Of a DNA stretch of 64,000 nt, positions 37,919 to 64,000 are shown piece after piece. The position numbers were made by a program, and so were the translations under genes. The notes beneath the pieces were generated by a model. The model saw nothing but the letters and a program-made list of their open reading frames with translations. It was not told where the DNA came from and ran no database searches. The DNA is from Phlyctochytrium arcticum. Lineage: Eukaryota; Chytridiomycota; Chytridiomycetes; Chytridiales; Chytridiaceae. The stretch is from assembly GCA_025602905.1 (NCBI GenBank), contig JAHLKI010000058.1, positions 1 to 64,000 of the forward strand, written 5' to 3'. Within the stretch, counting starts at the first letter, position 1. The number at the start of each line of letters is the position of its first letter.

Positions 37919-39859
37919 CTACCAATCATCACCTGATTCCTCAACATCTTCGTCTGAATCCGAATCTGAAAGACCGCAAATTTTAGGACACAGGTTCGCA
38001 GCGTAGTGAATGTATGAGGCGTTCCCTTACCCTCGAGTGCGGCACGCTTCTTCATCAACTGATCTCTCAAAATGTCAGCGAGGTTACTGCTATCAACAGC
38101 CTTTGGTGGTGTAGTAGATCCATCGGCCTTTCCGGTTGAAGTTTTGAGAGCACCGATACCGCCAGCTCCACGGATGGCGGCCAACAGGTCTGATGGATTT
38201 CCGCCAGACAATGGGGCTGCAGGAGCTGGGGTACTGCGAGTTGCATCCGGCCGGGCTGGTGGTGGCGGAGGGCCCGATGCGGGGGGAGCTGGTGGAGGTG
38301 GGGGACGCGGACCACCACCACTTGCTGGTGGGGGTTGAGGGATGGGTCGAGCTGGTGTGGGTGGGGGTCCTGCAGCTGCGGGGACGGGTACAGGTGCTCG
38401 TCTGGCAGGTTCTGGAGGAGGAGGAGTCTGAGCAGATATTGTTGGACCACGCGCTGGAGGAGGGGGCGGAGCCTGTCGACGACTGGGTGGCGGGGGCGGG
38501 GGTGCTCGACGCGATGCTAGATAGATTGATTAGTAAGAGTGCATCAAGCAGCCGCGAAAAGACTCACATCCGCTGTTGGGAATGGCGGGCGGTGCAGCCG
38601 GTGTAGGTGGGGCTTGAATAGCGGGTGCGGCTTGCTCCGCATTTACGTCGGCAGCATGTTGCTTCATGAATTTTTGTACAAATTTGGCAGTCTTTTTGTC
38701 GGAAAGTTGTTCCTGTGAAGGGAGTTTAGGTAAAGTATTGATAGTGGAAAGCAAGACAAACGTACGGAGGTGATTCCGGCTTTTTCGAAAATAAGCTGCC
38801 ATTCTTTGGGAATGTTGTGGGCCTGCATTAAGAGATTGTTTAAGTCAAGTGACGTCTGGCATACACGATCTGGTCAACATACCGTAAATCCCGAGGAGGG
38901 GTTGTAGCCAACGTGGGTGATGTGCCTAGGGACAGGGTTGGGTTAATATCAGTTGCATGTGTCCCTTTCAAGGTTACGCACTGGAAATTAGATGGAGCAG
39001 AGATTTGGGACGGATCTACTCGGCGCTTCTTGTCACCCTTTCCTTTCTTCGTTCCACTAGAAAATATTCCGCTTGCCCGAGGTGACGATGTCATGCCACC
39101 CCCGCTACGAATGGAATCAGAGCTGGCACTTGGGATCATTCCTAGCGAAGAGGATGTGGCAGATGATACTGATGCACATGATTTTAGTATGCGCGCCTCT
39201 TCTACACCTTGAATCAAAGCTGCTGCTTACATGGGGCTGGTGCGAGAGTGGGTGGTGGAGGGACATTTCTCGCTGGGGGAGGAGGGCCAGACACCGGTGC
39301 AGCAGGCGAAGATGCTTTTGACGCAGCATAACTTTCCTTGCGAATATATATGTCGTAAAAGTCAGAGGCCTCCCCTTCGTCGGCAAATGACAAGCCAATC
39401 ATTGAATCCTGTAATACAATGAGAGATTTGTACTTTTTGCTTGATGCATCATTTGACGTACAGTGCCAACAAAGGAATGAAAGAAGGGTTGATCCTTTTG
39501 ATAACTAACATCATCCACAAACTCGTATTCCCAAACTATGCGACCAGCCTAACGCAAGCAAAAGCTCAGTACGGCAGACCCAGTTTTGTGCTTTCCTTCA
39601 ATTAAGACCCACCGGAACCTCCACTAGCTGAAATGCAAACTTGCCAGAAGTCTTTCGGGACAGAACAACAGCGCCGACATTCCCTGTATAGGTCCATTGG
39701 TCTCGTTGGGAAGTGTAAATTCTTGCGATAGTCGATGCCAAGACCTTTTGAAAAGCGTCAGAATCCGTAAGTGGATGAGCCCACATCCAAGCGTACCTCT
39801 GAACCTCGAGTTGCATTCTTGATGGCTCTACTCTCGTCGGGCAGAATAAGTGCAGGCAT
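37919..39859 (-). CDS. Wiskott-Aldrich syndrome protein homologue (WASP/Las17)
   Basis: Exons run from ATG 39859 (MPALILPDESRAIKNAT) to TAG 37919-37921. An N-terminal WH1/EVH1 domain (GRIVWEYEFVDDVSYQKDQP, FHSFVGT) is followed by a CRIB motif (HITHVGYNPSSGFT) and a long Pro-rich region. A WH2 motif (DLLAAIRGAGGIGALK) leads to an acidic Arp2/3-binding tail ending SDSDEDVEESGDDW. WASP links Cdc42-type GTPases to Arp2/3-driven actin branching. Unlike yeast Las17, a CRIB is present. In chytrids this suits amoeboid crawling, which is inference. Confidence 0.93.
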
Positions 39860-48899: not shown

Positions 48900-49134
48900 G
48901 ACGGCGTTGCCCAGAACTAAGTAAACGACCTCAATCTTCCCCTCGGTATTGTTCTCCAATTGTTTTCATGGCAGTGGTTCTGATATTTGCCAGAGTTTTC
49001 GGGTCCGGTGGCAAAGTTTTCCAGGCGGAGTTCAATATCTTTCTTGAACGAAAAAGCAGCGGCGCTGCAGTTTCTGTGCAGTTCTCTCAATACGGACACA
49101 TCGGATGATCAATCAACAGCACAACCTTGTAGCA

Positions 49135-50637
49135 ATGACCAACCCCATCAATGATCGAATCTGGTATCATTTAGTCAATGAGGAGGGCGAAGATTTGAAT
49201 ATTCCTTATCCGATTCGTCCCAGCTCACAGATTCAGATTGTCGCCGACGTGCTTGAGGCGGTCTGGGAGAAGTGGAAAACGACGAAACTTATGCACGGGC
49301 TGGTGGCCGAAAAACTCTCCGTCTACGCGGACAAAGCAGCAATCGACAATCGCAGCCCTGCCTTAGAGATGGGCCAGACGGTCACGGCACTGGAGACGGC
49401 CGAAGAGAAGCCGCTCGTGATTGTGGTACCGGAACAGAAGCCGACAACGAATGGTAAGGCAGAGCGGATTCGGGGTGTATGTTTTAAGTCACAATTTTTA
49501 CATTTCGCTTCTGCATTGAAGAGGACACCCTTTTGAACGCTGTTCTGCGCCAAGTTACCGAAACCAATGCGAAACTGGAGGACATCAATGCGAAACTGGA
49601 GGTCCTGAAGCCCATTGTGGCTTACACGGTCGATCGAGCGTTCGAATTTGTCGCGGAGAGTGACCGGACAGAAGATAAATGGAGAGGCATATCGTTTCGG
49701 GCAGAACTGATAAGGGCGTATGGTTTGCCGATAAAACCGACCCATATCCAATGTAGCCTACTCGGCAGTTATCTCCCAGCTGGAAACATAATTGCAGCGC
49801 ACATTTTCCCGCGCATATGGTCTCATTCGCTGTATTTACTAGAAATTGACGATGTAGATGACCTGCGCAATGGGGTGTTCTTATACAAGCCGATCGAGCA
49901 CGCGTTGGACGCTGGGTGGATAACATTTCTGTTCTCGCCCAGTACCAATCAGTTCCACTGCCGAGTATTGTATCCAGGAATTTTAGGCGAAGATGTGGAA
50001 GCGGAAGGTTAGCATCTATCCTAAAGTGGAATTTGTGCTGCTTATTATGAATCTTCTTGCAGCCAGAAAACGTCTGGGAAACCAATATATTTCCACACCC
50101 ACTCCCATCAACAAAACCTTCCAAGATTTGATTAATGAACCCTTGATCCTGGCACAAGGGCACATTCCTTGGCAGCGGGTCTTTGCGTTTCACTCTATCC
50201 TAGCTAGGCAGCAAGCGATCAAGAAGGGTTGGATAGTTGCTACTGACTTTCTGGAAATTGAGGACGACGAGACATGGAGCCCCGCTGTTCTTGTCACAGT
50301 GCATCCCGTAGTATATACTACGGGATGCACTGTGACAAAGCGCTCTCAACGAGCCCTCAACGGTAAATGCTCCCAACGAGCCCTCCACGGTGAACGCTCT
50401 CAACGAGCCCTCAACGGTAAACGCTCTCAACGAGCCCTCCACGGTAAACGCTCCCAACAAGCCCTCCACGGTAAACGCTCTCAACGAGCCCTCAACGGTA
50501 AACGCTCCCAACGAGCCCTCCACGGTGAACGCTCTCAACGAGCCCTCAACGGTAAACGCTCTCAACGAGCCTGTGACAGTGCACAATTCATAAACCTAAG
50601 GTTTATGAATTGTGCACTGTCACAGGGGGCGGTTTAA
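49135..50637 (+). CDS. Crinkler (CRN) protein with C-terminal HNH nuclease domain
   Basis: Exon 1 (ATG 49135 to about 49451) encodes a ubiquitin-like CRN header: MTNPINDRIWYHLVNEEGED through AEKLSVYADKAA to LVIVVPEQKP, the counterpart of the HVLVVVP end motif. After an intron, exon 2 (from about 49520) has a short coiled coil and an HNH_2-type domain: AAHIFPRIW, DDLRNGVFLYKPIEHALDAG. Exon 3 from about 50063 carries the C-terminal extension common in fungal HNH_2 proteins (LIEPLILAQGH-like, SILARQQAIKKGW). The frame stays open through palindromes and tandem repeats to 50637, adding a 9-residue repeat tail that is probably not native. CRN proteins are predicted effectors or genome-conflict proteins; secretion and role here are unproven. 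Confidence 0.8.
50291..50338. repeat. Perfect 48-bp palindrome
   Basis: Arms of 24 bp (TTGTCACAGTGCATCCCGTA plus GTAT) meet without a loop. The next outer base pair does not match. It lies at the left edge of the 27-bp tandem repeat. Confidence 0.95.
50341..50570 (+). repeat. 27-bp tandem repeat, 8.5 units
   Basis: Units begin CGCTCYCAACGAGCCCTCMA and end CGGTRAA. Eight full units run from 50341 to 50556, with a 14-base partial copy to 50570. Variation is limited to a few positions. Because 27 is a multiple of three, it stays open in several frames on both strands. Confidence 0.95.
50570..50626. repeat. 57-bp palindrome with 1-base centre
   Basis: Arms 50570-50597 and 50599-50626 are perfect 28-bp inverted copies (CCTGTGACAGTGCACAATTC plus ATAAACCT) around one A. 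The arm shares TGCACTGT with the palindrome at 50291. Confidence 0.95.
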
Positions 50638-50670
50638 TGATTAAGCATTAAACCAATGGTTTAATGATTA
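50631..50670. repeat. Short hairpins with duplicated GGTTTAATGATT
   Basis: GGTTTAATGATT occurs at 50631-50642 and 50658-50669. CATTAAACC between them pairs with either copy. The next 350 bases (to 51022) carry GGATTA/TAATCC words but no gene. Confidence 0.7.
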
Positions 50671-51022
50671 GGGCTTTTTGGGCATTTTCAACACTCAAAA
50701 ACTGCACAGAACCCACCATTAACCTATCAAAAGCACCCATTTTCCGACATTGCCATTACACAGTATTACACAGGATAATCCCTGGTTTAATCCTTTACAC
50801 AGGATTAAAAATAATCCTCTACATAATCCAACAATCGAGTCAACACTCCTAAACCGAATCATCTCGCTCCATCTTTCATCGAGTGCCGCCCCTGGCTCCG
50901 CCAACACGGGAATTCTAGTCTATACTCAAGAACAACAGCATTTTATTCGAGCGGGATGTTCCCAAGCATTCACTGGGATGTCACCATATATTCATGTATT
51001 CATATATACAAAGAAAATATAT

Positions 51023-51367
51023 TTATGTATCCAACTTTTCTTCCTTCTGTATTTCCTCCACCAAATTGCCCATATCTAGAACATTCACAGTCTTCCACCA
51101 TACATCCGACTCTTTCAGATACTGTTCCCTTATGTCTGGTGGTAGAGCATTTGTGTCTACTCGGTTCATCTTTCGAATATTGAATTGTAACTGTTTCAGT
51201 ATTCGTCCTTTCCGTATCTTGATTTCCGTAATTCCTTTTGCTTTCATGCTAGTCTTGACACTTGCCAGTATATCCGTGTGCCTCTTAACTACTGCTGCTG
51301 CTTTTTTGTACTCCTCTGATTGATCCAAATCGATAAACTCTTCGGCTTTTTTCTCAATGAATTCCAT
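51023..51367 (-). CDS. Small unknown protein near the element's left side
   Basis: An ATG at 51367 opens 114 codons rich in Lys and Glu (MEFIEKKAEEFIDLDQSEEY, VKTSMKAKGITEIKIRKGRI). It ends VVEEIQKEEKLDT-like. It is intronless and looks like a small helical protein. No family recognised. Confidence 0.5.
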   Translation of the reverse strand: MEFIEKKAEEFIDLDQSEEYKKAAAVVKRHTDILASVKTSMKAKGITEIKIRKGRILKQLQFNIRKMNRVDTNALPPDIREQYLKESDVWWKTVNVLDMGNLVEEIQKEEKLDT

Positions 51368-51481
51368 TATTCGCTGGTTTGTGTGGAATTCTGCTGAATA
51401 TTGAGGGAATTTCCGCCATGCTTTGCACTCTTTTATGTCTTTGGCAATGGCATATCGATCTACTTTTCTGGGTTCTTCAGA

Positions 51482-51531
51482 TCGATAGGGAAATACTGCT
51501 TAAACAATTTGTGAGTAGAAAAACCTGTCGA
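51482..51531 (+). other. Candidate recombination site, left copy (degenerate dyad)
   Basis: The 50-base segment starts TCGATAGGG and ends GAGTAGAAAAACCTGTCGA. The right half matches both copies at 63631 and 63871 almost exactly; the left half is worn. Orientation is the same as the right copies. Confidence 0.5.
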
Positions 51532-51729
51532 TATGTCGGCACCTTTAGAATTTGCTGGATATATTGTCAGCAAATTCTAGCCTTTCAAAAATGCCCCAAA
51601 ATGCGACAGATTTCACCAGTTTTCAACGGCTGCCTCTGGCATTTACGGGAATTCTATTCTGTGGTAGTTTTGTGGGGGTATTATCAATCATCTTCACAAG
51701 TCAAACACACCTGCAATTTCACCTCTTGT

Positions 51730-52178
51730 AAATGTACCTCTCCATCACTTTCTCACCCGTTTTCACTTTCATACAATCTCGACATTATGGAAAGGACGGT
51801 GTATAATGTTCTGCAACTTTATGGAGAAGTACATTTACAAAAAGGGAAAATAGCAAATGTACCACTACATACTTTTGATTCTTTCTTTTTTCTTTTTCTT
51901 TTGACTAGAGAGAATAGAGAGAAGAGAATAGAAAAGGGTAATGGATATATGGAGCCGTACATTTAGTACATTTGTACATTTAAAAATGAAGTCAGAGAAA
52001 AAAAAAGGGAAAAGGTAAAAAATAATATTATGAAAATTTCAGACCCTTGCAAATGTACTCACTCCATGCCCGAGTCAAACATATTGCTGGATTGATAGTG
52101 TATGGAAAGACTTTATCTAGTGAGTACATTTACATTTTCTATCTGTAAATGTACCAACAATTGTACATGTAAATGTAC
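51730..52178. repeat. Iteron-like cluster of AAATGTAC/GTACATTT, candidate origin
   Basis: Ten exact copies of the octamer or its complement lie at 51730, 51829, 51855, 51957, 51966, 51974, 52051, 52124, 52147 and 52171, three of them back to back at 51957-51981. The region is AT-rich and gene-free and lies just past the 3' end of the primase-helicase. By count this is far above chance for 450 bases. An origin role is inferred from location. Confidence 0.6.
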
Positions 52179-52249
52179 TGCAATTCTTTTAGCCGGCTTT
52201 TTCTATTCTTTGACAATCATTCTACAAACATTCTATATTACATCTTGCT

Positions 52250-54829
52250 TTAAATCTTCTCTATTTTTATTATGATTGGTGTTCCTCCATTCCTGTGTGT
52301 GCTAGCATTCTTAATCCATACCTTTTTTCGAATTAGTTTTCCAAAGCCCTTTTTGGACAATTGCTCTGACATTCTTCCACCCTGCTTATCCTCATAGCAA
52401 AACTTGTGATAATATCCAAACAATTCATCCATGGTCAATTCATATTCTTCACCTGGCAAAAAGTACTCGGCCTCTGTATCAACCTCGTGTCCTGGAATCC
52501 AATTATCAGCAATTCTGTACCTGCCTGGGATAAATTCCTTTTTACTTGGTGTTTTAATGATATTGCCATCAAGTAATTCATCTACAAAGAGATCAATTGG
52601 TGACCTTGTAAATACAGCCATTTCACGCTTCTCCTCTGTCATAGGGACTTCTCGTGGATCAAAGTCAGACAAGTCCATATCGAGCAAATATGTGTAGAAA
52701 TGATTGGCAACATCTTGACGCATTTCGTCACCATTTAACCTTGCAAAATAGTCTTTGAAATACTGTCTTGGTGGTTTGCTTGCGGTTCTTTTGACACCAA
52801 ATCGTCTATCACCATCGCCGCCATCTTCAATACGAATTGCATCTTTGTTATTTGATAAGAACACGAAATGCATAAAGGAATCGATAAGAAGGAGATCAAT
52901 GCCTTTTTTCTCCAATGGAATTTGTGTTTCAGTAATTTTGGATTTCAGTATGTTATTCTGCTTATGCTCGCCTGCAAAGGTGACCTCGTTTGCTACTGTG
53001 TAGAGAGACTTTGCTTGATGAGCATTGAATCTTCCGGTAATTTGATCCATCGAACTGGTAGAGAAAAAGTGGTTTTTCCCATAGATGTAATTGCCGAGAA
53101 AGTCAAAGAATGCATTTTTTCCTGTACCCTGTGGTCCGATGATAACCGGTGCTGTTCCCATCTTGATCCAAGGGAACTGAAAGGCATGTGCCTGCCACCG
53201 GATGAGCCAATCATAGAATGTTTCGTCGCCATTGCATATGATATTCTTACAATGGTCAAGTAGAAATTGGATTTTGTTCATATCAACAACTGGAACCCGT
53301 TTTGCCTGGAAACCTTGGAAGAGATTGATAAATCGACCTTCAATATCTCCAGCATTCCGCGGGTTCAATGTTACATTCTTGAAAGTTCGTATATGGGGGT
53401 CAAATATCCAATCCGAGCATTTGAATTTCTCTTCTACAGTTTGACTTTTGCCTTTTTCATCTACAATAACATACTCGTACATAAACCACTTATTCTCAAG
53501 ATGATTCGAGAAAGCCGGTTTACCCCGAACTAACCATGGTGAATCAATTGAATCACGTATACAATACCATATTGAATCTTCATGAGTGACTTTTGCAAAG
53601 TAATGATTCAAATAGTGGATCAACATTTCTCTTCCATGTTTCTCCATTAACTTACGTGCTTTACGTAGGTTAAGTTCTTCTCCAGGTTGTACCAATGCCT
53701 TGGCATCCTCGGGAAAGTGTTCAGCAATGATGAGGTTATCGTGGGCTTTAGTGAATGATTTATCACAAACATCACAGTGATATCTCATCTTTTTGCGAGA
53801 GACCGAGATATACATTTTGGGATTCGATTCAGTATGTTCACATTTTGTATGTAGACAAAAATACGGTGCTTTAATGTATGCGATAAAGGCATGTTCAAGT
53901 TCTGAAATGTTTCCTAAATCGCTTTTTCTAATGCAGAATAATTCAACAATTGACTTTATAATCTCGTCTTGTAGAATCTTTGGGCATTCTTCGGAATCTA
54001 CAGTTTCTGGGCATGCCACTTTCGCCTTCTTTTGCATTGGATCATCTGATTCTACATGTACAAATTCGGAATCTTCATCATCTTCATGTACTCTTTTCAT
54101 GGTCGCTGTGGGAACGTTTACTATGGCTTTTTTCTTAGTATTGAACGCTGTGTGTTGACTCCATTTGACAGGTTCATCATCGGATTGAACATTCTGGATA
54201 AGATAATTCTCCAAAGGTTCATTATCGTCCTCTTGATACAAGATCCGATTATCATACTTCGATTTGGTCTTTCCAACACATGCCATGGAGCGATTGACAT
54301 CACTATATACACCGGTGTCAAAGAGTGAATCATTGTCAAAGGAATAATTGCGCACACATTCTGGAAATGTTGATAAATCAGGCATGAATCCCTTTAGATG
54401 CTTTGACAAGTCTTGACGAGAAGTGAATACATTGTTTGCATAAAGCCGATAAGAAATCTTATACTTTCCATGTTCGATATATTCTCCAGATTGTTTATCT
54501 CGTTTCTTATTGGTAGCAAACCCCCTTTCGCGGTATGCAGCAAGAATTTTTATATTGGTATTTAAAAAGAGACTGTAAAAGATATTTTTAAGGGCTTCTC
54601 GAATTTTCAGTTCTTCATCATCTGAAGGAAGCGCTTCTTTTGATTTGAATGACATATCGAAGTCAATGAACGGTCTGATTTTCTTGGTTGTAATACTGGA
54701 ACTTTTGGCAAAAAAGTCAACGAGATGGGGGTATTTCTCGTGATTTTCTAGATACTGATTAACAGTCCAGTCAAATGTTTCAACCGGAAACTTTTTTGAG
54801 GTACTAAGGTAAGAGGTTTTGAAATACAT
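52250..54829 (-). CDS. AEP primase - SF3 (D5-like) helicase fusion
   Basis: An intronless frame of about 859 codons starts at ATG 54829 (MYFKTSYLSTSKKFPVETFD); an extension to ATG 55006 crosses a TATA-like box and is unlikely. The primase domain has the metal-binding FIDFD near residue 54 and GKYKISYRLYANN. A Cys/His cluster follows (CLHTKCEH, YHCDVCDKSF). The SF3 helicase has Walker A IIGPQGTGKNAFFDFLGNYI, an FLSNNKDAIRIEDG motif C-like block and the arginine finger region GDRRFGV. This architecture is known from large DNA viruses, virophages, transpovirons and plasmids. It would prime and unwind element DNA. It is the best-preserved element gene. Confidence 0.88.
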   Translation of the reverse strand: MYFKTSYLSTSKKFPVETFDWTVNQYLENHEKYPHLVDFFAKSSSITTKKIRPFIDFDMSFKSKEALPSDDEELKIREALKNIFYSLFLNTNIKILAAYRERGFATNKKRDKQSGEYIEHGKYKISYRLYANNVFTSRQDLSKHLKGFMPDLSTFPECVRNYSFDNDSLFDTGVYSDVNRSMACVGKTKSKYDNRILYQEDDNEPLENYLIQNVQSDDEPVKWSQHTAFNTKKKAIVNVPTATMKRVHEDDEDSEFVHVESDDPMQKKAKVACPETVDSEECPKILQDEIIKSIVELFCIRKSDLGNISELEHAFIAYIKAPYFCLHTKCEHTESNPKMYISVSRKKMRYHCDVCDKSFTKAHDNLIIAEHFPEDAKALVQPGEELNLRKARKLMEKHGREMLIHYLNHYFAKVTHEDSIWYCIRDSIDSPWLVRGKPAFSNHLENKWFMYEYVIVDEKGKSQTVEEKFKCSDWIFDPHIRTFKNVTLNPRNAGDIEGRFINLFQGFQAKRVPVVDMNKIQFLLDHCKNIICNGDETFYDWLIRWQAHAFQFPWIKMGTAPVIIGPQGTGKNAFFDFLGNYIYGKNHFFSTSSMDQITGRFNAHQAKSLYTVANEVTFAGEHKQNNILKSKITETQIPLEKKGIDLLLIDSFMHFVFLSNNKDAIRIEDGGDGDRRFGVKRTASKPPRQYFKDYFARLNGDEMRQDVANHFYTYLLDMDLSDFDPREVPMTEEKREMAVFTRSPIDLFVDELLDGNIIKTPSKKEFIPGRYRIADNWIPGHEVDTEAEYFLPGEEYELTMDELFGYYHKFCYEDKQGGRMSEQLSKKGFGKLIRKKVWIKNASTHRNGGTPIIIKIEKI

Positions 54830-55050
54830 TGTTGTTGTTTTTCTTTGGATACTGATAAACAACAACCATTTATTTAAATAGCAGTAAAACGCAGACATCG
54901 CAAATGCACTTTCCGATGTTGAATTTGATGGATCTCGATGTTGAATGTGTGGGATTTCGATGATCTTAGATGTTTTCCAATGGTAAAAGATGCGTTCATT
55001 GAACATATTTAAACAAATACAAGTAATATAGTACTAATCAACACGATAAT
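54830..55050. promoter_or_regulatory. Divergent promoter with two TATA-like boxes
   Basis: TATTTAAATA at 54871-54880 lies 42-51 bases before the primase-helicase ATG. TATTTAAAC at 55006-55014 lies 37-45 bases before the ATG at 55051. Both fit a core promoter position. Confidence 0.5.
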
Positions 55051-55290
55051 ATGCCTTCTTCGAAACACAATTACACAGGTTATTATGAAAAGTATGGAGT
55101 TGAACATGTCTTTCATGCAGAATCTCTACGAGATCTGGCTAAGCAAATGAGTATAAATTATGTGACAATGTTAAAATACTCACATGCGCCAAATGGAGTT
55201 TCTCCTATTGGAAAACTGCCTCTACGTATAGCGAAAACATTGAAAAATGACACAATGTCATTTAAAGATATGAATGTGGTTATTGACTAG
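55051..55290 (+). CDS. Small unknown protein, possibly DNA-binding
   Basis: 79 codons from ATG 55051. The middle (AESLRDLAKQMSINYVTMLK) has the spacing of a helix-turn-helix, with YSHAPNGVSP after it. It is directly followed, 12 bases on, by the DUF3223-HNH gene, so both may share a transcript. A regulator role is only a suggestion. Confidence 0.55.
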   Translation: MPSSKHNYTGYYEKYGVEHVFHAESLRDLAKQMSINYVTMLKYSHAPNGVSPIGKLPLRIAKTLKNDTMSFKDMNVVID

Positions 55291-55302
55291 TATTGTACCC
55301 AC

Positions 55303-56016
55303 ATGTATAAATTAGGAGGTAAAGATTTCGCTTCGATAAAAGCAATCCAAAAGTATGTATCTCAACTGATCACCGAAACACCATTTGGAACTTTCATGAT
55401 TGGTGAACAATATAACGTCCTGCATAATTTGTTTAAATGCCATCCGAATGCCAAAGGAAAGTTTGGTAATACAGAATTTCCAAAGATTAAAAGAGAGGAT
55501 GGCGGGTTTATATTCGAACGAGAAGATGGGTCAAGAACTGATATTAGTTACTTGAAATGCTTAAAGAAAAGCCTTCTTGTGCACGGAGAATTAACCCCTG
55601 CAGAGAAACAAATGTTAGATTACCAAGACATATGTCGCGCTGCTCGCTTTGAAATTCAACAGCAAATTGATCAATTTCGAAGGGAGTTTTGGAACGACAA
55701 TAAAGAACCAACGCCATGTCCGATATTGGGATTGCCAATGACAAAAGCATGTTCCGAAGTTGACCATGAAATTACATTTAAACATCTCATTGATCGGTTT
55801 TTAGAAACTGATATTGGTATGACATTGTCAATTGAACATATAGGAGGTTTTGAAGATAATTGTACTCATCACTACTTCAAGAGAAAAGAACATTCGAAAG
55901 CATGGAGAGAATATCATGAACAAAATTGTAAACTTAGAATGGTACACAAGACAGCAAATCGTGGTGTGCTTCGACAAGGAATCAGAAATGAGAAGCCAAG
56001 TTTGATTTTGCGCTAG
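55303..56016 (+). CDS. DUF3223 (DCL-family) domain fused to HNH-like nuclease
   Basis: 237 codons, intronless. Residues 1-95 match the DUF3223 pattern: GGKDFASIKAIQKYV, NVLHNLFKCHPNAKGKFGN, REDGSRTDISYLKCLKKSLL. Residues 135-225 look like a modified HNH domain: PTPCPILGLPMTKACSEVDH with EITFKHLIDRF and WREYHEQNCKLRMVHKTAN. The His-His pairing and Asn near the end fit, but the metal ligands are not certain. Phage proteins with this pairing exist to my knowledge. A nicking or resolving role in the element is possible. Confidence 0.65.
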   Translation: MYKLGGKDFASIKAIQKYVSQLITETPFGTFMIGEQYNVLHNLFKCHPNAKGKFGNTEFPKIKREDGGFIFEREDGSRTDISYLKCLKKSLLVHGELTPAEKQMLDYQDICRAARFEIQQQIDQFRREFWNDNKEPTPCPILGLPMTKACSEVDHEITFKHLIDRFLETDIGMTLSIEHIGGFEDNCTHHYFKRKEHSKAWREYHEQNCKLRMVHKTANRGVLRQGIRNEKPSLILR

Positions 56017-56075
56017 CAACTGCGCAACAAGCCAGAAACGCGCACTCGAATCAACAAGCCAAAACGCGTGACGTA

Positions 56076-56318
56076 TCAACTTGACGCTCGGAAATTCTTG
56101 TCTGCAATTTCATCTGGCTCTAGTTTGAACTTGACCACCTTTTCTTCCTTATTCCGCATCCAACAAGGCATACATCGCAAGCGATTTTTCATATAAGGGA
56201 TTACAATGGAACAAAGTATGTTATCGGATGAATAATCTTTACAGATTCTGCAGTTCTTTGGAACAATGGGGTATCCTTTATCGTCATATTTGACGATATA
56301 GGGCGTCGTGTCAATCAT
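56076..56318 (-). CDS. Small cysteine-rich (zinc-ribbon-like) protein
   Basis: 80 codons from ATG 56318. Two CxxC pairs (NCRICKDY and RCMPCWMRN) lie 30 residues apart, as in a treble-clef or zinc ribbon. A TTTAAATATA box at 56348-56357 sits 30-39 bases upstream. No family recognised. Confidence 0.55.
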   Translation of the reverse strand: MIDTTPYIVKYDDKGYPIVPKNCRICKDYSSDNILCSIVIPYMKNRLRCMPCWMRNKEEKVVKFKLEPDEIADKNFRASS

Positions 56319-56694
56319 TTTGATGTTCTATAAATAGTATCAAAACGTTTAAATATAAAACAACAGTAGCGCGGCTGTAAGATTCTTTTCTTTTTTCCAT
56401 GCATGGAAAGAAAGTATCCGAGAGGGTTCCGATAAGTATAAAGGTGTGGAAGCACCATCTGTAAGGGTAGCGGGACAATTGTTGTCCGCTCGATAATAGG
56501 AATGAATAAAATGTAGTTGTGTGGGTCGAAACGCCGCTTTATCGGCTTGACCAATGTTATAAGTGACCAGGATTTCGACGTCGCGACCATTGGTCTCAAG
56601 AATTCTCGCCTGGTCAAGAAAAGTTTGGTCACGAAAACTCTAGTGAAGAATATTAAGTTGTTCCAATGGTTGGTACATATCGCATTCCAGATAG
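56319..56694. promoter_or_regulatory. Divergent intergenic region in the element
   Basis: 376 bases between divergent starts at 56318 and 56695. A weak minus-strand open frame here looks like chance. AT-rich with TATA-like boxes on the left side. Confidence 0.4.
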
Positions 56695-57756
56695 ATGATG
56701 GATTTCTCAACTTCAATGTATAGCCTGAACCAACAACAAGTGACGCTGCGGGGGGCTCTACCAATGAGGATTTTCAGTCGGACTTTTACTGATGAGGATA
56801 TCCGGTCGAGACTCCAAACTGCACTTGGTTCGGAAAACATCCCTCATTATGACCGCATCCGAGCGGTACACGAGGTTTTGAAGCAAAAAAAGACGTTCAA
56901 CATCATCTCTACAACAATTGTTGAATTGTTACAAGATGGTCAAAGGGAGATTGAGAATCTGAAGCGACAGTTACATACAACTACAATGAAAATGGAGCAA
57001 GGTCTTGAAGACAAGGTTGGGCACCAAGTGGATGCTGGTAATCAGCGCGCTATCAATATAGGATTGAAAACGAAAATTGGGGAATTAGAAGCCGAAATCG
57101 AGCGGTTAAAGAAGAATCAAAAACGACCCCTTGCGCTCCCAGAGGATTGGGGAAAAACCAAGAAAACCAAAAAACAAGAAGGATACGGTCCGATCGAAAA
57201 CATCATCAATTTAATCGTGAAACATGACTGTACATACGACATAACACCATCTGTAACTATCTCGCTTTCCAACATATGCGGCTTATCAACATACGACGAA
57301 CTTACTGCGCAATTGACAAACCTCGAAAACGCCAAGGTCATGGGTGTATTCCTGCGGGCGGTTATGTCTTGTGTATATTTCGAATTGTTCGGAACCAAAA
57401 ACCGCGATGCCAAACGTTGGCACACATTGAACACCCACTTAAACGCCTGCATCATACCGGTATTCTGCGACAAACCGAGTTTGAATCACATAGCCGACGA
57501 CAACTATAAACTCGATCTCCTCCAGCAATGGCTGGACGAACAACGCCGCAAGCCAAAAAACGAACAGATACCGTTCATCACCCGCGAGAAATTATGGCTG
57601 GAGTTCCTGACCTGTATCCGATTAGGTGACACCGATAAGGCGTTGGCACTTGTGCCGAAACTGCGTGGAAAGCGCAACATCAGTTTGCCGAAGTCGCCTG
57701 TTGAATTTGATGAAGACCCAGTGGAAATTGATGAAGATGGTGGAGAAGGAAATTGA
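56695..57756 (+). CDS. Unknown element protein with central coiled coil
   Basis: 353 codons from ATG 56695, intronless. Residues 60-150 form a long charged helix (DGQREIENLKRQLHTTTMKM, KIGELEAEIERLKKNQKRPL). The second half (GLSTYDELTAQLTNLENAKV, AVMSCVYFELFGTKNRDAKR) appears globular. The C-terminus is acidic (EFDEDPVEIDEDGGEG), with the GGEG/DEDG stretch encoded by a short repeat that continues past the stop. No family recognised; it could be a DNA-binding or structural protein. Confidence 0.65.
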   Translation: MMDFSTSMYSLNQQQVTLRGALPMRIFSRTFTDEDIRSRLQTALGSENIPHYDRIRAVHEVLKQKKTFNIISTTIVELLQDGQREIENLKRQLHTTTMKMEQGLEDKVGHQVDAGNQRAINIGLKTKIGELEAEIERLKKNQKRPLALPEDWGKTKKTKKQEGYGPIENIINLIVKHDCTYDITPSVTISLSNICGLSTYDELTAQLTNLENAKVMGVFLRAVMSCVYFELFGTKNRDAKRWHTLNTHLNACIIPVFCDKPSLNHIADDNYKLDLLQQWLDEQRRKPKNEQIPFITREKLWLEFLTCIRLGDTDKALALVPKLRGKRNISLPKSPVEFDEDPVEIDEDGGEGN

Positions 57757-57860
57757 TGAAGATGGTGGAGAAGGTGGTGAAGGTGGTATAGATGGTGAAG
57801 GCGAAGCGGGCGCCAGCGGTTCTCGAATTTGATATGTTTGTTTGCTTTTCGTAATCTTTT

Positions 57861-57983
57861 CATCGTTTTCGTTTGTTTTTCATCTGTTTGTTTTACCAAT
57901 ATCATTCTTCATCGTTTTCTTTCAATACATCATCGTTTTCTCACATCATTCTACATCGAACTTGCCCGTTTTACATCGTTTTC
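57861..57983 (+). repeat. Four copies of CATCGTTTTC upstream of the recombinase
   Basis: Exact copies at 57861, 57910, 57931 and 57974 inside a T-rich leader. A TATATAAG box at 58012 and the start codon at 58079 follow. They may bind a regulator of the recombinase gene. Confidence 0.45.
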
Positions 57984-58078
57984 TCCCCTTGTACATCCCG
58001 TTACAAAAGGGCTATATAAGGACGTGAATTTTCTTATTGTTCATAATCATTAAACCATTAGTTTCACCATTAAGAACA

Positions 58079-59350
58079 ATGAATATCGAAACTGCCAAAC
58101 GTTATCTTGCCATTGCCCCTCTTTCCGATTCGTCCAAGAAGAATTATGCATCTGGTATCAACCGGCTCGGTGAATTGAAATTCTTTACCGATAACATGTT
58201 GTTTGACCCGGTTACTGCCATCGCTAGAATCAATGTGAAATATCCCAATCAGTCAAGTGCGGGAAATCTCACCAAAGCACTTTCCGCGGTTTTCAAGGGA
58301 ATGTCAGATATCGAGAAGATTGCCATATTGAATGGTTATATTGCGCAACAACCAATGCTTATACAAAACTCACTCACAGCGCTCAAAGATGCCGATAAGT
58401 TGAAACTTTTCAAAGATTCACTCGTAAAACCATATGAAGAATTACACCATCAGAAATGTAAAGCAATTATTCCCAGAGTTGTCAAAGAAGCCGATATCAC
58501 AATGAGTGACAAACAAACGGCACGATTCATTCATGCCGATGTCCTCAATGAGAAGTTGAAAAAGGCCATAAAGAAATCTTTAGACGAATGCAAATATACT
58601 GATGCGAGTTATCTCATTATCGCCGCGTTGTATGGAGAGTCAACAGATGAAACACTGCGGACAGATATTCTCCATGCCCGCTGGAGGAACTGAACCGATC
58701 ATGACAATGTGACATATGATCTGCAAAATGCTGTTTTTCATGTTAGTTCATCACGCAAACAAGGTAACGAAACATATATCCAGGTGCTGGATAATGAGAT
58801 GAAAGAGTATCTAAGCACACTATGCGCCGCTCGTGATATTGAAAATTGGGATTATCTTGTTCGAAAACAAAGGAACAAGGATGATCATCCCCTGGATGAT
58901 CGCGGTAGATGGAGTAATACCCATGCTTCAGCATTGTCAAGGACTATGGAGAAATATCTTGGAACCAAAATGAGCAACAATGATCTCCGCAGGTCCATTT
59001 CAATGAAACTATCTGAGAGTGATAATGGAGACATTATTGCACAAAGCGCAATTGTCAAGAAAATGAACCATTCATATCCGGTTCATCAAATTTTCTATAA
59101 CAAGCGAGTTCATTGTGTACAATGCAACCAACAAATAAGGGGCGAAGATTTACAAGATATCGTTGACGGTAAATGCTCATTATGTCAGAGTTTGGTTCAT
59201 AACGATGACGAGCCGGCTGCGCTGGCAGGCTCGCAAAGCGAGCAAGATTTCTTTAGCGACATTGAATCCGACGATGATTTAGAACACGAAATGAACACAA
59301 TATTCGAATTAATAGATAGATCTTGTTCAGCCATGGATGTCAACGAGTAG
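58079..59350 (+). pseudogene. Tyrosine recombinase with C-terminal zinc finger, split by in-frame TGA
   Basis: One frame of 424 codons holds a single internal TGA at 58691-58693 (codon 205). The N-terminal half has a SAM-like core-binding domain (YLAIAPLSDSSKKNYASGIN). Catalytic elements are Arg in TDETLRTDILHARW just before the TGA, Lys in SSRKQGNE, Arg in MSNNDLRRSISMKL (an Asn replaces the usual box II His), and HSYPVHQIFYNKR with the predicted nucleophile Tyr near residue 339. A Cys4 finger follows (HCVQCNQQIRG, DGKCSLCQSLVH). Host genes nearby use TGA as stop, so a nonsense mutation, readthrough, or sequencing error are the options. It is not a DUF3435 Starship captain by eye. Confidence 0.8.
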
Positions 59351-60672
59351 TAGAGTTGTATAAGTATTCTCTGTAATATATTGATGATCTTGCACCATCT
59401 TCAAATTCTTCAACTAGATCCATAACTTCCAGTAAGTTTGACAGCGGCTCATACGTGTCGGCAGAAGCATCATAACCTTTCCAACGGACTCGGTACTCCA
59501 CTCGGTGACCCCTACGCCGCTTGTCAACAATATAATCCACTTCATAAAATCCTGGTCGATTTTGCCGCAAAGACCTACGTACTGGTGCTTCCTCTTCTTC
59601 CTCTTCTTCTTCCTGGTCTTTCTCTTCTTCCTGTTCTTCCTCATCCTCTTCCTCTTCATCCGGTTCATTTCCATGGGGAATTAAGTCATTTGGAACACGA
59701 TCTTGTTCATCATCAACTTCACCATCTTCTTCTTCATCATCAACTTCACCACCTTCTTCTTCATCATCTTCTTCCTCATCATCAACTTGATCCTCGTCTT
59801 CTTCTTCTTCCGCTTCGGGATCATCTTCGACATTGTCTTCGACATTCACTTCTTCATCATCTTTAGAGAGTATCGGAGGGATTGGTAGCAGCGACGTTCT
59901 TGGGAATCTTAAATCTGTTTATCCCAGAACCCCAGTAATCCAGGTTTCTTTAAACCCCCCTTGTAATATACGTTTCTTCCGCACTTTTTGCCCAACAAAC
60001 AATGGTGTTCCAATTTGCCGAGTTTTATATCTGCTTGCGATATTCTTTTCAATACGAGCCTTTGCTGCTGCAGAAATATTTTCATCACCTACTTCCATCT
60101 GATCAAGTGAGAAACCTGTTGACAAAGATTTACGGAATTGATGTTGTCGACAACGGTTTGCAGATAATTCACCCATTTTTTATCTCCATTTGACTCCATA
60201 ATTTGGTATAACTGTGATTTTATCACACCACCCCGCCTTTCCACAAATGCATTTGATGGCGGTCTTGCCGCTTGACTGTAGAAATGTTTGATTCCACGAT
60301 CTTCGAGTTCTTGTTTGAAAATCTGTTGGAAGTGTGCCCCTTGATCCGTTTGCATACTGAAATTTTCTTCCCTTCCGCATCAGCCTTTTGTAAACACTTT
60401 TTTAGTGCTTCCGTTACTTCTTCTTCCGATTCTCCTCGTAAAGGAGAAGCGTAACCTTTTTTAGTGAAGCCGTCAATCATGGGAACAAAAGCGACATAAC
60501 CTCTGTCGGCATATGTCCGCATTGATACTAAATCTGCTTGAAAATAGCCCGGTTTCGTTATTTGCAATGGTGCGATACTCGATGCCTTTGGAGGTTTCAT
60601 GTGTGTTTGCCATTCGGGCTTGTATTTTAGAAACGAATTCAAAACTGACCTCTGCGAACCAGTGAGCCGCAC
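59340..60672 (-). pseudogene. Decayed Polinton/Maverick-type DDE integrase with chromodomain
   Basis: Four minus-strand segments in shifting frames: KPGYFQADLVSMRTYADRGY, which carries the first Asp; QTDQGAHFQQIFKQELEDRG, the second Asp; PPSNAFVERRGGVIKSQLYQ, the Glu; and a C-terminal chromodomain (YRVRWKGYDASADTYEPLSN) after an Asp/Glu-rich linker. Frames break near 60354 and 60120, and a TAA interrupts near 59916. The N-terminal zinc domain is missing. No GT-AG pairs repair it. The last codons overlap the recombinase end by 11 bases, so the genes converge. Confidence 0.8.
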
Positions 60673-61213
60673 TCCATGATTTCAGAAATTTAGAAAACTA
60701 AAATGTTTGAATTCATCAAGAAAAAAGGGTCATTCTAATTATGCCAAATTGGGAATGTGTGAAAAACATGTTTCACCCAGTTTTCAAACTTTTCACCCCG
60801 TTTGTGTTGATAAACCGTCAAAACATACAAAAAATGTCAATTGATATGACTTTATCAACTCAAAACGCTACCTTCTCGACACTGTTCACCGGGCGGGACG
60901 AAACAAGAAATCTTACCCGCAGTTTTCCCACAGACACGCCTCACTTGCTACATTTTTACCAACATACAATACGAACACTCTTTATTCTCTACACACTTAT
61001 CAAGTACCATACTGTTACAAGGGTTACACTACATGAATCTTTCATCAGATTTACACCCGCAGTTTCTTCGCTTTTCACCTACCCTCACTTTTCAGCATCC
61101 ATTCTCGTGTTACATATGTTCACACTTTCCATCTACTTTCCGTGTAGGCGCACGGATAAGTGAGTAAGAGTGTATCGTTCCGCTCCATATATGCATTTGT
61201 ACAACAGTTCATT
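60673..61213. other. AT-rich intergenic stretch between integrase relic and Crinkler
   Basis: About 540 bases. A plus-strand open frame at 60741-61163 has low-complexity aromatic content and no motif; I do not accept it as a gene. Confidence 0.45.
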
Positions 61214-63121
61214 CTAAGGCGACAATTCCAGTACCAAAGGGGTGTCATAGCCATATACAAAGTGGCATGTTTTGAATTCGAGAGACCCAAAAAAAACCGA
61301 TAGCCGATTTCGAGAACGCCGAATGTTCGAGACTGGACCCAGCCGAAAATCTACGACGACGTAATCCTTCACACGAAGCCCATAGTATTTTCCTCCGGGA
61401 GAAAATCGATCAATGTGTTCTCCAATGCGGCGACCGCTCACAAGGAGTTCGATTCCCCAGCGTAAAAGTCCGTTTAGATAAAAATCAAACCTTCCTTGGA
61501 TTTTTTCGTTCGATTCCTTGTCATTCTCGGGAAACACGTCTGATAATTCTGGACATATCTGACAAGTTGGCGGAGTTGATGCGGCAACTGCAGCCATCAG
61601 AAGATGTTGGAAGGTTGTCTCGTTTGGAAAGCCCCCATCACCAACCGTAGATTGACGAAGCAGCGAACCTGACAAACGGGAAATGGCAACCCTTCATCAA
61701 ACTTTCAAGAGAAGTCGGCAGCGCCACAGATGAACTTCTGTTTGGGAAGAGGAACCTGGTGTAAAACCGCTTGGCCAAAGGCGATGAGAATTTAATCTCA
61801 ACCGCAGTCTCGTCCTGTCCAGTGTCAGACAGAATTCCAGATTTGGTCAACCATCTGAGGTGGCGCTTTGCCTCTTCATCAAGTGATGCTACTTGTAGGA
61901 TCCGCCCTGTTTGAAGCAAACAACTTTCCAGAAACGTCTTCAGGTTTCTATCCACCGGGGTCGACTGTTTCTCGCCAAAACACCGCGTCATCCGCTCAGC
62001 AACACTTGAAGAAAAAAAATATTGCAGTAATGTCGATTCCGAAGGCTCTTCTCCAAATGAATTCTTTGAATACCTGTCCACAAGGGCATCAATCGAAACG
62101 CGGAGTGCAGCAATCAGTCCGTTGCACTCTCGAATTAGAACTTGCTCAAGCAGATCAGTCTGCCAATTTTTCGGCAGACCAAAAGGTGACGGCGCTTGGA
62201 GCAGATCAAGTGCCTCTTTGTACGAAATTTGAAAATCACCCCATTTGATTCGTGGTAAGGATCGAAGCGCGGGAGGACTTTCATTCCGGGTTTCCAGTAA
62301 ATGTGTTGCCGATAAAATAAAATTCGTGCACCCAAATAATGGTATCACATCTTTGACGAGTTCTGCCCAGTGGGAATGTTGGTCATACGTTGCTTGAGCG
62401 TCATCCAGCCATACAATACAGCGGGTCTTATTGTTGAGTAGATGCGTTTTAGCGTGGCGGTCGATGATGCTTCCGGTGCGCAAACGGTCAATAAACTGAG
62501 CGAAATCACTTCTGAGAAGTGAAGCACAAATGACATTCCTGATATTGGCCTCAAACAATCTGGATAGTGAGGTTTTACCGGAGCCGGCCGGCGAGGATAT
62601 CACCACAATCTGATTCCGTTGTAATTTACTTAGCAGTTGATCTCGCAATTTAATACGGGGGAGGTAAAAGCCGTCCACGTTGATGTCATTATGTTGGGTG
62701 AAGAGATCGTGCCAGGTTGCTAAATTGTGTGGCGGTAGCGGGAAAGGAAAGGCATGCGTTAGAAAGGCTAATGTACCTGTAGTTGCTTTCAAACTCCCTT
62801 ACCACTAGTTGTCGCCTGACCTCGCTCCGGCACCACAATGAGGATCGGGTGGTCGTCATCCGTGTCTCCTAGCGTATCCACCTTCTTGCCCGGCTTTAGC
62901 CCGGTCAGAGTTTTGTTTGCGGCAATATCATCGTCTAGTTCACTCTTGCTGGCGTAGACGAGGAGTTGGTTTGCGTCAACCTTCTCCAAGTCGTTGGCGC
63001 ACTTCCCCTTCACGGCATCGCGCAGATTGTCCACATTCGAGGTTTCTGAGACAGAAACGGAGGTGACGGTTGCTACTCTCTTGCCGTTGGCAGTAGTTAG
63101 TTGAAACCAGATTGTCGTCAT
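61214..63121 (-). pseudogene. Crinkler (CRN) with NTPase and REase-like domains, one frame break
   Basis: From ATG 63121 the CRN header (MTTIWFQLTTANGKRVATVT, KLDDDIAANKTL-like, ending HPILIVVPER) splices at a GTAAGG donor near 62797 into ATWHDLFTQHNDINVDGFYL. The NTPase domain has Walker A ISSPAGSGKTSLSRLF and Walker B RCIVWLDDAQ. The C-terminal domain (GRFDFYLNGLLRWGIELLVS, EHIDRFSPGGKYYG, DYVVVDFR) matches the REase-like part of the classical CRN effector design. NTPase and REase parts lie in different frames that overlap at 61638-61675 with no intron to join them, so the gene is probably broken there. CRN effectors of this type are predicted to act on nucleic acids. Confidence 0.8.
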
Positions 63122-63630
63122 GGTTGTTTCCTGTGAATCTTGCTTGCGGTATTTCGCCGTATTTCGGCTACTGAAGTGGTCAGTCAACAACTGCAGGCGC
63201 CCCCCCGCAGGTGGCTTATGTCAGTGGCACAGATATCAAAAAGTAGCGCGTGCGGCGTGAAAACATTGGTTCTGTACAGAGGGCAGTACTAGAGGCAGCA
63301 CTAGAACCAGTACAGTGCATTCATATAGATTCTCAAGGAAAACGCCCTCCAGGGACTTTTTCCCGTATCACTTTGCGGCTTGTTCCAGGACAAACGACTC
63401 CATTACCCGCTCAGCCCAAATTGAATCTTCACCAAAAATGTTTGTGGTAGTTGCTATACATTGCCGTCAAAATGCACATGTGACCAATACGATAAAAGCA
63501 AGCGAATAAAGCGGAAAATCGTCAAAGATATCAACGTTTACAAGGTTGATAAAAGCGAACGATTGCGCCAAATTGAAAGTATAGTTGGTGAATACTTGTA
63601 AATGATGGACAATCCATATTACATTTGTTA
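63122..63630. other. Upstream region of the right-hand Crinkler
   Basis: About 510 bases without a supported gene. A run of nine C/G-rich bases (GCGCCCCCCCG) at 63198 stands out in AT-rich DNA. Confidence 0.4.
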
Positions 63631-63681
63631 TCGACGGGGTAAAGTACTCATTTAATAGAAATGAGTAGAAAAACCCGTCGA
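63631..63681 (+). other. Candidate recombination site, right copy 1
   Basis: A 51-base dyad: left arm 63631-63652 starts TCGACGGG and ends ACTCATT, 7-base centre TAATAGA, right arm 63660-63681 starts AATGAGT and ends CCCGTCGA. Seventeen of 22 arm positions pair. The shape resembles tyrosine recombinase core sites. Confidence 0.6.
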
Positions 63682-63870
63682 ATACAACGTCATTGAAAAA
63701 CCTTTGTGAATAATTTACTAAATTTTGCCCTTTGCCCGATTATGCCCAATTATGTATGAAATCGATACATAATTTGCAAATGTAGCCGTTTATTGCTGTT
63801 TCCGGTATGAAATGCTGAGATGTTAGCCATTCAGTTTCAGGATCGGTTCCCTTCAAGTTGTATTTTGTAT

Positions 63871-63921
63871 TCGATAGGGCAAGTTACTCATTCACAAGAA
63901 ATGAGTAAAAAAACCTGTCGA
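63871..63921 (+). other. Candidate recombination site, right copy 2
   Basis: The same dyad, exactly 240 bases after copy 1: arms 63871-63892 and 63900-63921 around CACAAGA. Similarity to copy 1 continues about 40 bases downstream (ACCTTTG, ATAATTTACT), so the two form a partial direct repeat. Confidence 0.6.
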
Positions 63922-64000
63922 ATACTGGGACACTGTAAACCTTTGCATATAATTTACTTGATTTTCAGTTCGCGTGGTTTTCGTTGAATCTTGATCGTTT

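Follow-up and report, generated by a model that had tools for sequence, protein, structure and literature searches.

Identity and boundaries of the element

How does a block of virus-like genes without a capsid gene come to lie in the genome of a chytrid fungus, and how is it related to the viruses that it resembles? The question is raised by the window analysed here, the first 64,000 nucleotides of contig JAHLKI010000058.1 of Phlyctochytrium arcticum (C58:1-64000, C standing for contig; the genome comprises 31.48 Mb in 91 contigs). A first-pass annotation had marked 51482..63921 as a capsid-less, virus-like mobile element of a chytrid. That description is supported, with other limits: the element occupies C58:50572-68509 (17,938 bp), is bounded by terminal inverted repeats (TIRs) and has its last 4.5 kb past the window edge. 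On balance we favour the view that it is a capsid-less, perhaps helper-dependent, member of a polinton-like virus lineage colonising the chytrid genome, because its ends, its TIR-encoded protein and its 5-bp target-site duplication match those of capsid-bearing elements of the same genome. These features, together with an rve integrase, do not fit the plasmid- or transpoviron-like element without known kin that had been proposed earlier. The features that define the ends are as follows (no strand unless stated).

50291..50338: perfect palindrome of 48 bp, outside the element and to the left of the array below
50338..50571: 27-bp tandem array hosting the element; its final five bases, GAGCC, are the left duplication
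50571..51459: left TIR, matching C58:67626-68510
50572..64000: portion of the element in the window, defined by TIR match, palindromes and duplication
50572..50624: left terminal palindrome, 53 bp with 26-base arms and 0 mismatches; twin at C58:68457-68509
51023..51367, minus strand: TIR-encoded protein, 114 residues, an open reading frame (ORF) whose twin matches 75 times in the genome

The two TIRs are 95% identical across 891 columns. GAGCC is found on both flanks, within the tandem array, which resumes on the right at C58:68502-69380. Since the array is repetitive, this duplication is weak taken alone; the four other duplications described below sit in unlike sequence. The dyad motifs of the first-pass annotation were recovered: the window contains two perfect palindromes with arms of at least 15 and loops of at most 4 (50291-50338 and 50570-50626) and no others, against none in 20 mononucleotide shuffles. 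The palindrome at 50291-50338 looks like the end of some other element. At the contig end (C58:70519-71824), a 62-bp perfect palindrome and a TIR protein (70955-71251, minus strand) form the beginning of another element.

Among the 75 genome matches of the TIR protein, 34 make up 17 inward-facing pairs 14-50 kb apart and 41 are unpaired. Both ends were read in six of the 17 pairs (C58, C30, C4, C26, C18 and C1). Five of these elements have TG..CA ends and a 5-bp duplication: GAGCC in C58 and GACCG in C30, both capsid-less, and CCGTT in C4, GTAAC in C26 and GTCAG in C18, all capsid-bearing. In the remaining element, C1:1528055-1551009, the ends are unlike and no duplication is present. The palindrome arms contain no mismatch at 11 of the 12 ends and one at the twelfth; in C30, C18 and C1 the left end does not agree with the right, each still being self-complementary. 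The capsid-bearing and capsid-less classes have in common the TIR protein, 5-bp duplications and palindromic ends of the TG..CA type, and the outer arms keep TGNNAYRGTGC in both. Such ends are able to form hairpins, a feature of hairpin-ended linear replicons, and palindromes combined with 5-bp duplications are the expected trace of fold-back end copying and rve-type insertion. Perfect palindromes of 87 bp with outer TGTGACAGTGCAT arms were also seen at C45:135509-135595 and C43:3636-3722, near copies of the element's first primase-helicase at contig ends.

Capsid-bearing relatives and the capsid/Crinkler split

One of the capsid-bearing elements on C4 was read whole. Its TIRs are 97% identical and no shorter than 1.1 kb, and it has a capsid gene in two pieces, an A32-like ATPase (Pox_A32, 29.7 bits, cut-off 22.8), a primase-helicase in pieces, and a 1749-residue protein with no Pfam match that we take to be fibre-like, as we take another to be penton-like. 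Two further ORFs of this element are F-box-like (below cut-off; L036:1126-1596) and response-regulator-like (30.1 bits against a cut-off of 30.2; 1623-2030). The capsid protein matched 50 stretches of the genome and the ATPase 45, some of them pieces of one gene. PDB sequence searches with the capsid protein gave no meaningful match, and Pfam Capsid_N gave matches only below its cut-off, in three of five capsid proteins (0.0018, 0.017 and 0.094). For a poor model of one annotated copy (mean predicted local distance difference test score, pLDDT, 48.7), the 50 PDB matches shown by Foldseek all came from double-jelly-roll virus capsids (best E 3.7e-11). Among the named BFVD matches, those near the top were for the most part major capsid proteins; unlike names occurred there too and became more frequent lower down. 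It is therefore the fold search, not the sequence, that points to a double-jelly-roll capsid. At three loci that were read (C17, C3 and C6), integrases of the C58 type adjoin capsid genes; capsid-adjacent integrases have 60-78% identity with the integrase of the C30 element (C6 78%, C17 68%). One TIR pair, C1:1324622-1343329, has a capsid match near either end and no ATPase match.

When the 17 pairs were classed by content, 11 had a capsid match without a Crinkler match, four had Crinkler without capsid (C58, C30, C1:1528566-1550658 and C42), two had neither (C5 and C6), and none had both. ATPase matches fell in nine of the 11 capsid pairs; the remaining six pairs had none. The close integrase type occurs in three capsid pairs (C3 and two on C4), and the capsid-less C1 element retains a D5_N protein. 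A single capsid protein and the central piece of the C58-type Crinkler served as queries; the tally used 75 of 75 TIR-protein, 50 of 50 capsid, 24 of 24 Crinkler, 57 of 117 integrase, 18 of 29 primase-helicase and 6 of 7 recombinase matches, the omitted rows being chromodomain-only and short pieces, and unpaired matches were left unclassed.

The earlier finding that no capsid gene is seen in the block was borne out. A capsid profile run on all six frames of the C58, C30 and C1 elements gave a best E of 0.82, compared with 1.3e-118 for the C4 control. A packaging ATPase had no match in the C58 element. Nor was a full virus found just outside the window, the case that had been named as speaking against the first reading: tblastn with four proteins of the C4 element (capsid, ATPase, penton-like and fibre-like) gave no match in C58:48001-71824, to the contig end. 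Capsid loss has been proposed for Polintons; for part of the hosts concerned, not all, divergent capsids came to light later (PMC7805220, PMC10120064). We therefore hold the negative result with care. Conceivably the element is a complete virus with a capsid protein so divergent that it escapes recognition, as the capsid proteins of this group were themselves recognised by fold and not by sequence. We consider this very improbable, however: the packaging ATPase match is absent too, and the genes left over for such a role are the coiled-coil-like protein, the DUF3223 protein and small ORFs.

The split also bears on a second explanation, that these are ordinary capsid-bearing polinton-like elements from which the capsid was deleted after insertion and which gained a host Crinkler by chance. 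Broken genes, TIRs 5% apart and the Helitron inserted in C30 agree with decay of this kind, as do an intron-like stretch in the Crinkler gene, expected of a host gene, and the position of 13 of the 24 Crinkler matches, for which the nearest TIR-protein match is over 30 kb away or missing from the contig. Chance does not readily account for four TIR-bounded pairs of 17-32 kb with Crinkler and without a capsid match when no pair has both. In addition, both primase-helicases are open (918 and 922 residues), and a 3.5-kb Crinkler-integrase block, 93% identical between C58 and C30, lies at different places in the two. Decay by chance thus seems distinctly improbable to us.

Gene content and state of the C58 copy

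From left to right the element carries the TIR protein (-), iterons, primase-helicase 1 (-), the DUF3223 protein (+), a small protein (-), a coiled-coil-like protein (+), the putative recombinase (+), an rve-chromodomain integrase (-), the Crinkler gene (-) and a small ORF (-), followed past the window by primase-helicase 2 (+) and the second TIR protein (+). The integrase, the Crinkler gene and the second primase-helicase were missing from the first-pass inventory.

51730..52178: iteron-like cluster with AAATGTAC/GTACATTT in 10 copies, a candidate replication origin, from motif count against shuffles
52250..55006, minus: primase-helicase 1, 918 residues, open; DUF5906 helicase part
55303..56016, plus: DUF3223 protein, putative HNH nuclease; Pfam DUF3223 1.7e-6
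56076..56318, minus: 80-residue protein; weak zinc-finger match below cut-off, 52% relative in the C30 copy
56695..57756, plus: coiled-coil-like protein, 353 residues; weak matches below cut-off
58037..59350, plus: putative tyrosine recombinase, unconfirmed; two ORFs in one frame (58037-58693, 58709-59350) with a stop between
59340..60672, minus: rve integrase with C-terminal chromodomain, broken and spread across several frames
61214..63190, minus: Crinkler gene; N-terminal Crinkler domain (62789-63190), putative intron, then two further parts
61638-62792 and 61214-61675, within the Crinkler gene, minus: P-loop NTPase-like part and C-terminal part, in differing frames
C58:64206-66974, plus: primase-helicase 2, 922 residues, open; D5_N helicase part (Pfam)

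The primase-helicase, the DUF3223 protein and the iteron region called in the first pass were confirmed. Primase-helicase 1 matches Pfam DUF5906 (1.5e-17) and two PDB entries named Primase (3.1e-11). The two primase-helicases are alike N-terminally (DNA 54045-54829 and 64266-65050, 89% identical), in a part that we presume to be the AEP primase, and differ in their helicase parts. Each has its own repeat region beside it: the iterons for the first, an inverted repeat (C58:67020-67318) for the second. The 10 iteron copies in 51640-52240 compare with a mean of 0.044 and a maximum of 2 in 2000 mononucleotide shuffles. The DUF3223 protein has no second match in a search of its own genome, and the coiled-coil-like protein has a close copy (84%) in C30 only, with four weak matches elsewhere in the genome. 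A family-B DNA polymerase had no Pfam match among the 16 element ORFs scanned (other, mostly overlapping, ORFs lay outside the scan), again as the first reading had it.

The tyrosine recombinase called in the first pass, an enzyme that marks Cryptons and similar elements, was not confirmed. For 58037-59350 no support came from Pfam, NCBIfam, a PDB sequence search or Foldseek, the last with a model of very low quality (mean pLDDT 36.3); the protein contains what we take to be look-alikes of tyrosine recombinase motifs, and its identity stays putative. A role for this protein as protelomerase was considered and is disfavoured, because elements without a matched copy also end in perfect palindromes.

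The rve integrase with chromodomain, a Polinton/Maverick feature, is present in pieces in the window (rve matches below the Pfam cut-off, chromodomain above) and has an intact relative in C17. Both primase-helicases, the DUF3223 protein and the coiled-coil-like protein are open in the C58 copy, whereas the integrase, the putative recombinase and the Crinkler gene are broken by several frames, a stop and a frame change respectively. With the integrase and the putative recombinase broken, the C58 copy probably no longer integrates by itself, and it appears decayed. Elsewhere in the window, positions 38001-39000 show a local rise in GC content (0.555) and in GC skew (0.283).

The Crinkler gene

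The N-terminal domain of the Crinkler gene matches PF20147 (26.3 bits, cut-off 24.6). Its middle piece gave weak STAND/AAA matches below cut-off; the C-terminal piece had no Pfam match and is presumed, by eye, to be nuclease-like. In C30 the middle and last pieces share one reading frame; in C58 they do not. In five copies of the gene (C58, C30, C24 and two on C1) the N-terminal piece still ends with GTAAGG, and in four of them TTCTAAC follows further down, ahead of an AG. We read the stretch between the N-terminal and middle parts as a putative spliceosomal intron. The block shared with C30 extends over C58:59910-63417.

Some further Crinkler-related sequences were observed. An ORF left of the tandem array and outside the element (49105-49536) is Crinkler-N-like, with 30% identity to the element's Crinkler (E 3.7e-5) and no Pfam match. 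Of the unpaired Crinkler matches, one (C45:44724) has a capsid match at a distance of 7.8 kb and another (C23:392269) a TIR protein at 485 bases; others are remote from both. An integrase fragment in which the order of chromodomain and core is reversed recurs on C1, C24, C79, C16, C6 and C28, adjoining Crinkler in at least the first three.

Copies, relatives and self-sufficiency

Pieces of the element are found on five other contigs (C30, C24, C45, C43 and C39). A second complete capsid-less element, C30:303708-333778, has a Helitron inserted at its left (Helitron_like_N and PIF1 genes at C30:303960-312314). The extra left part of the C30 copy holds this Helitron, and for that reason we no longer regard the copy as a fuller virus. 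Scans of IMG/VR viral contigs gave no relative of primase-helicase 1, the capsid (two queries), the integrase, the putative recombinase, the ATPase or the DUF3223 protein, and protein searches returned P. arcticum proteins and, outside its own genome, one ENA protein at 33% identity; both kinds of search need shared short words, so that distant kin may be missed, one of the protein searches scored only the best 7992 candidates, and bacterial and archaeal genomes, phages and plasmids lay outside the scope of these searches.

This distribution would suit a self-sufficient transposon- or plasmid-like element that lost its capsid and spreads within the genome by its own integrase and replication proteins, with no helper: the replication genes are kept, with the integrase in pieces, there are pieces on five other contigs, and the one relative outside the genome is remote. 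The integrase and putative recombinase are, however, broken or stopped in both C58 and C30, which implies that help in trans is needed, and the ends are maintained like those of capsid-bearing elements. We regard self-sufficiency as rather unlikely.

A model for replication, insertion and spread

If the C58 element belongs to the polinton-like lineage, the following scheme would account for its structure. Free linear element DNA would replicate from the iteron regions, probably with the element's own primase-helicases. The palindromic ends would fold to hairpins and be copied back, keeping each palindrome perfect. The rve-chromodomain integrase would join the TG..CA ends to host DNA; the 5-bp duplication is observed, and this enzyme very probably produced it. 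Since the element makes no capsid, spread between cells, if any, would occur within the particles of a capsid-bearing relative, making the element a satellite; this is plausible, although we lean slightly away from it. More tentatively, the Crinkler protein may be cargo that benefits the element, aiding it against helper, host or competitor.

Several observations weigh against assigning the element to this lineage as a helper-dependent member. The capsid model, besides its pLDDT of 48.7, reaches TM-scores of at most 0.33 in the PDB matches. The Fisher value for the capsid/Crinkler split (0.0063) overstates independence, the pairs being related copies, and is indicative only; the tally also rests on one capsid query and one Crinkler type, so other types could be missed. 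TIR proteins of the capsid-bearing pairs are about 40-46% identical to that of C58, and primase-helicase 1 matches fall within three of the 17 pairs only (C58, C30 and C4). Five of the 11 capsid pairs (C15, C18, C23, C26 and C41) have an integrase about 30% identical, and three have no integrase match. Crinkler may move with the integrase fragment as its own unit (C24, C1 and C79). Hairpin ends, which we consider likely, are predicted from palindromes alone, and dependence on a helper is something that we infer.

That a single fungal genome contains both polinton-like elements with a capsid and a capsid-less class whose ends are of one kind with theirs makes satellite behaviour of eukaryotic DNA viruses directly testable. 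It places Crinkler genes inside virus-derived elements, and the ends hint at a solution to the end problem of a linear genome that uses a primase in place of a protein-primed polymerase. As a speculation of low probability, chytrid genomes might hold a true satellite class, hairpin-ended, with the capsid traded for a Crinkler toxin, that rides in relatives' particles and disables the helper or a rival or holds the host; satellites would then be a vehicle for the origin and spread of Crinklers among eukaryotes.

Comparison with known systems

Polinton-like viruses have been reported from a chytrid and another fungus, with TIRs and 5-7-bp duplications (PMC7805220). Among the fungal and ten oomycete elements in large contigs, TIRs were present in seven and 5-7 bp duplications in three, with a tyrosine recombinase or RVE integrase (PMC7805220). 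What appears to be new here is the capsid/Crinkler split and the hairpin-type ends, for which no prior description was found in the literature searched, subscription journals being mostly outside its reach. The polinton-like virus of Spizellomyces punctatus and its metagenomic group share a chytrid host with the C58 element; they are described as having a capsid gene (PMC7805220), whereas none was found in the C58 element, which carries a Crinkler. Of polinton-like virus features, the C58 element has TIRs, primase-helicase and rve integrase (in pieces); capsid and packaging ATPase were not found.

Polintons (Mavericks) have a protein-primed family-B polymerase and 6-bp duplications. The C58 element, in contrast, has primase-helicases, and the duplication is 5 bp in five of the six elements read and absent from the sixth. 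Polintons without a detected capsid gene are, like it, integrated, with TIRs and an rve integrase. Examples are the Polintons of Rhizophagus (Glomus) and Entamoeba (PMC7805220). A large survey of protists left out fungi (PMC10120064).

The transpovirons of mimivirids are linear, plasmid-like, helicase-encoding DNAs that parasitise viruses (PMC7031253, PMC11071308). They are described as 7-kb giant-virus episomes, whereas the C58 element is 17.9 kb long and chromosomal, with integrase pieces and a 5-bp duplication. Transpovirons, too, are not known to have a capsid.

Crinkler effectors with an NTPase and nuclease C-terminus are said to have been described by Zhang et al. in 2016. Crinkler genes are effectors of oomycetes and chytrids and were earlier linked to transposable elements (PMC5289972). 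The C58 gene resembles these effectors in its N-terminal Crinkler domain and P-loop NTPase-like part (PMC5289972); it differs from them in its location within a virus-derived mobile element.

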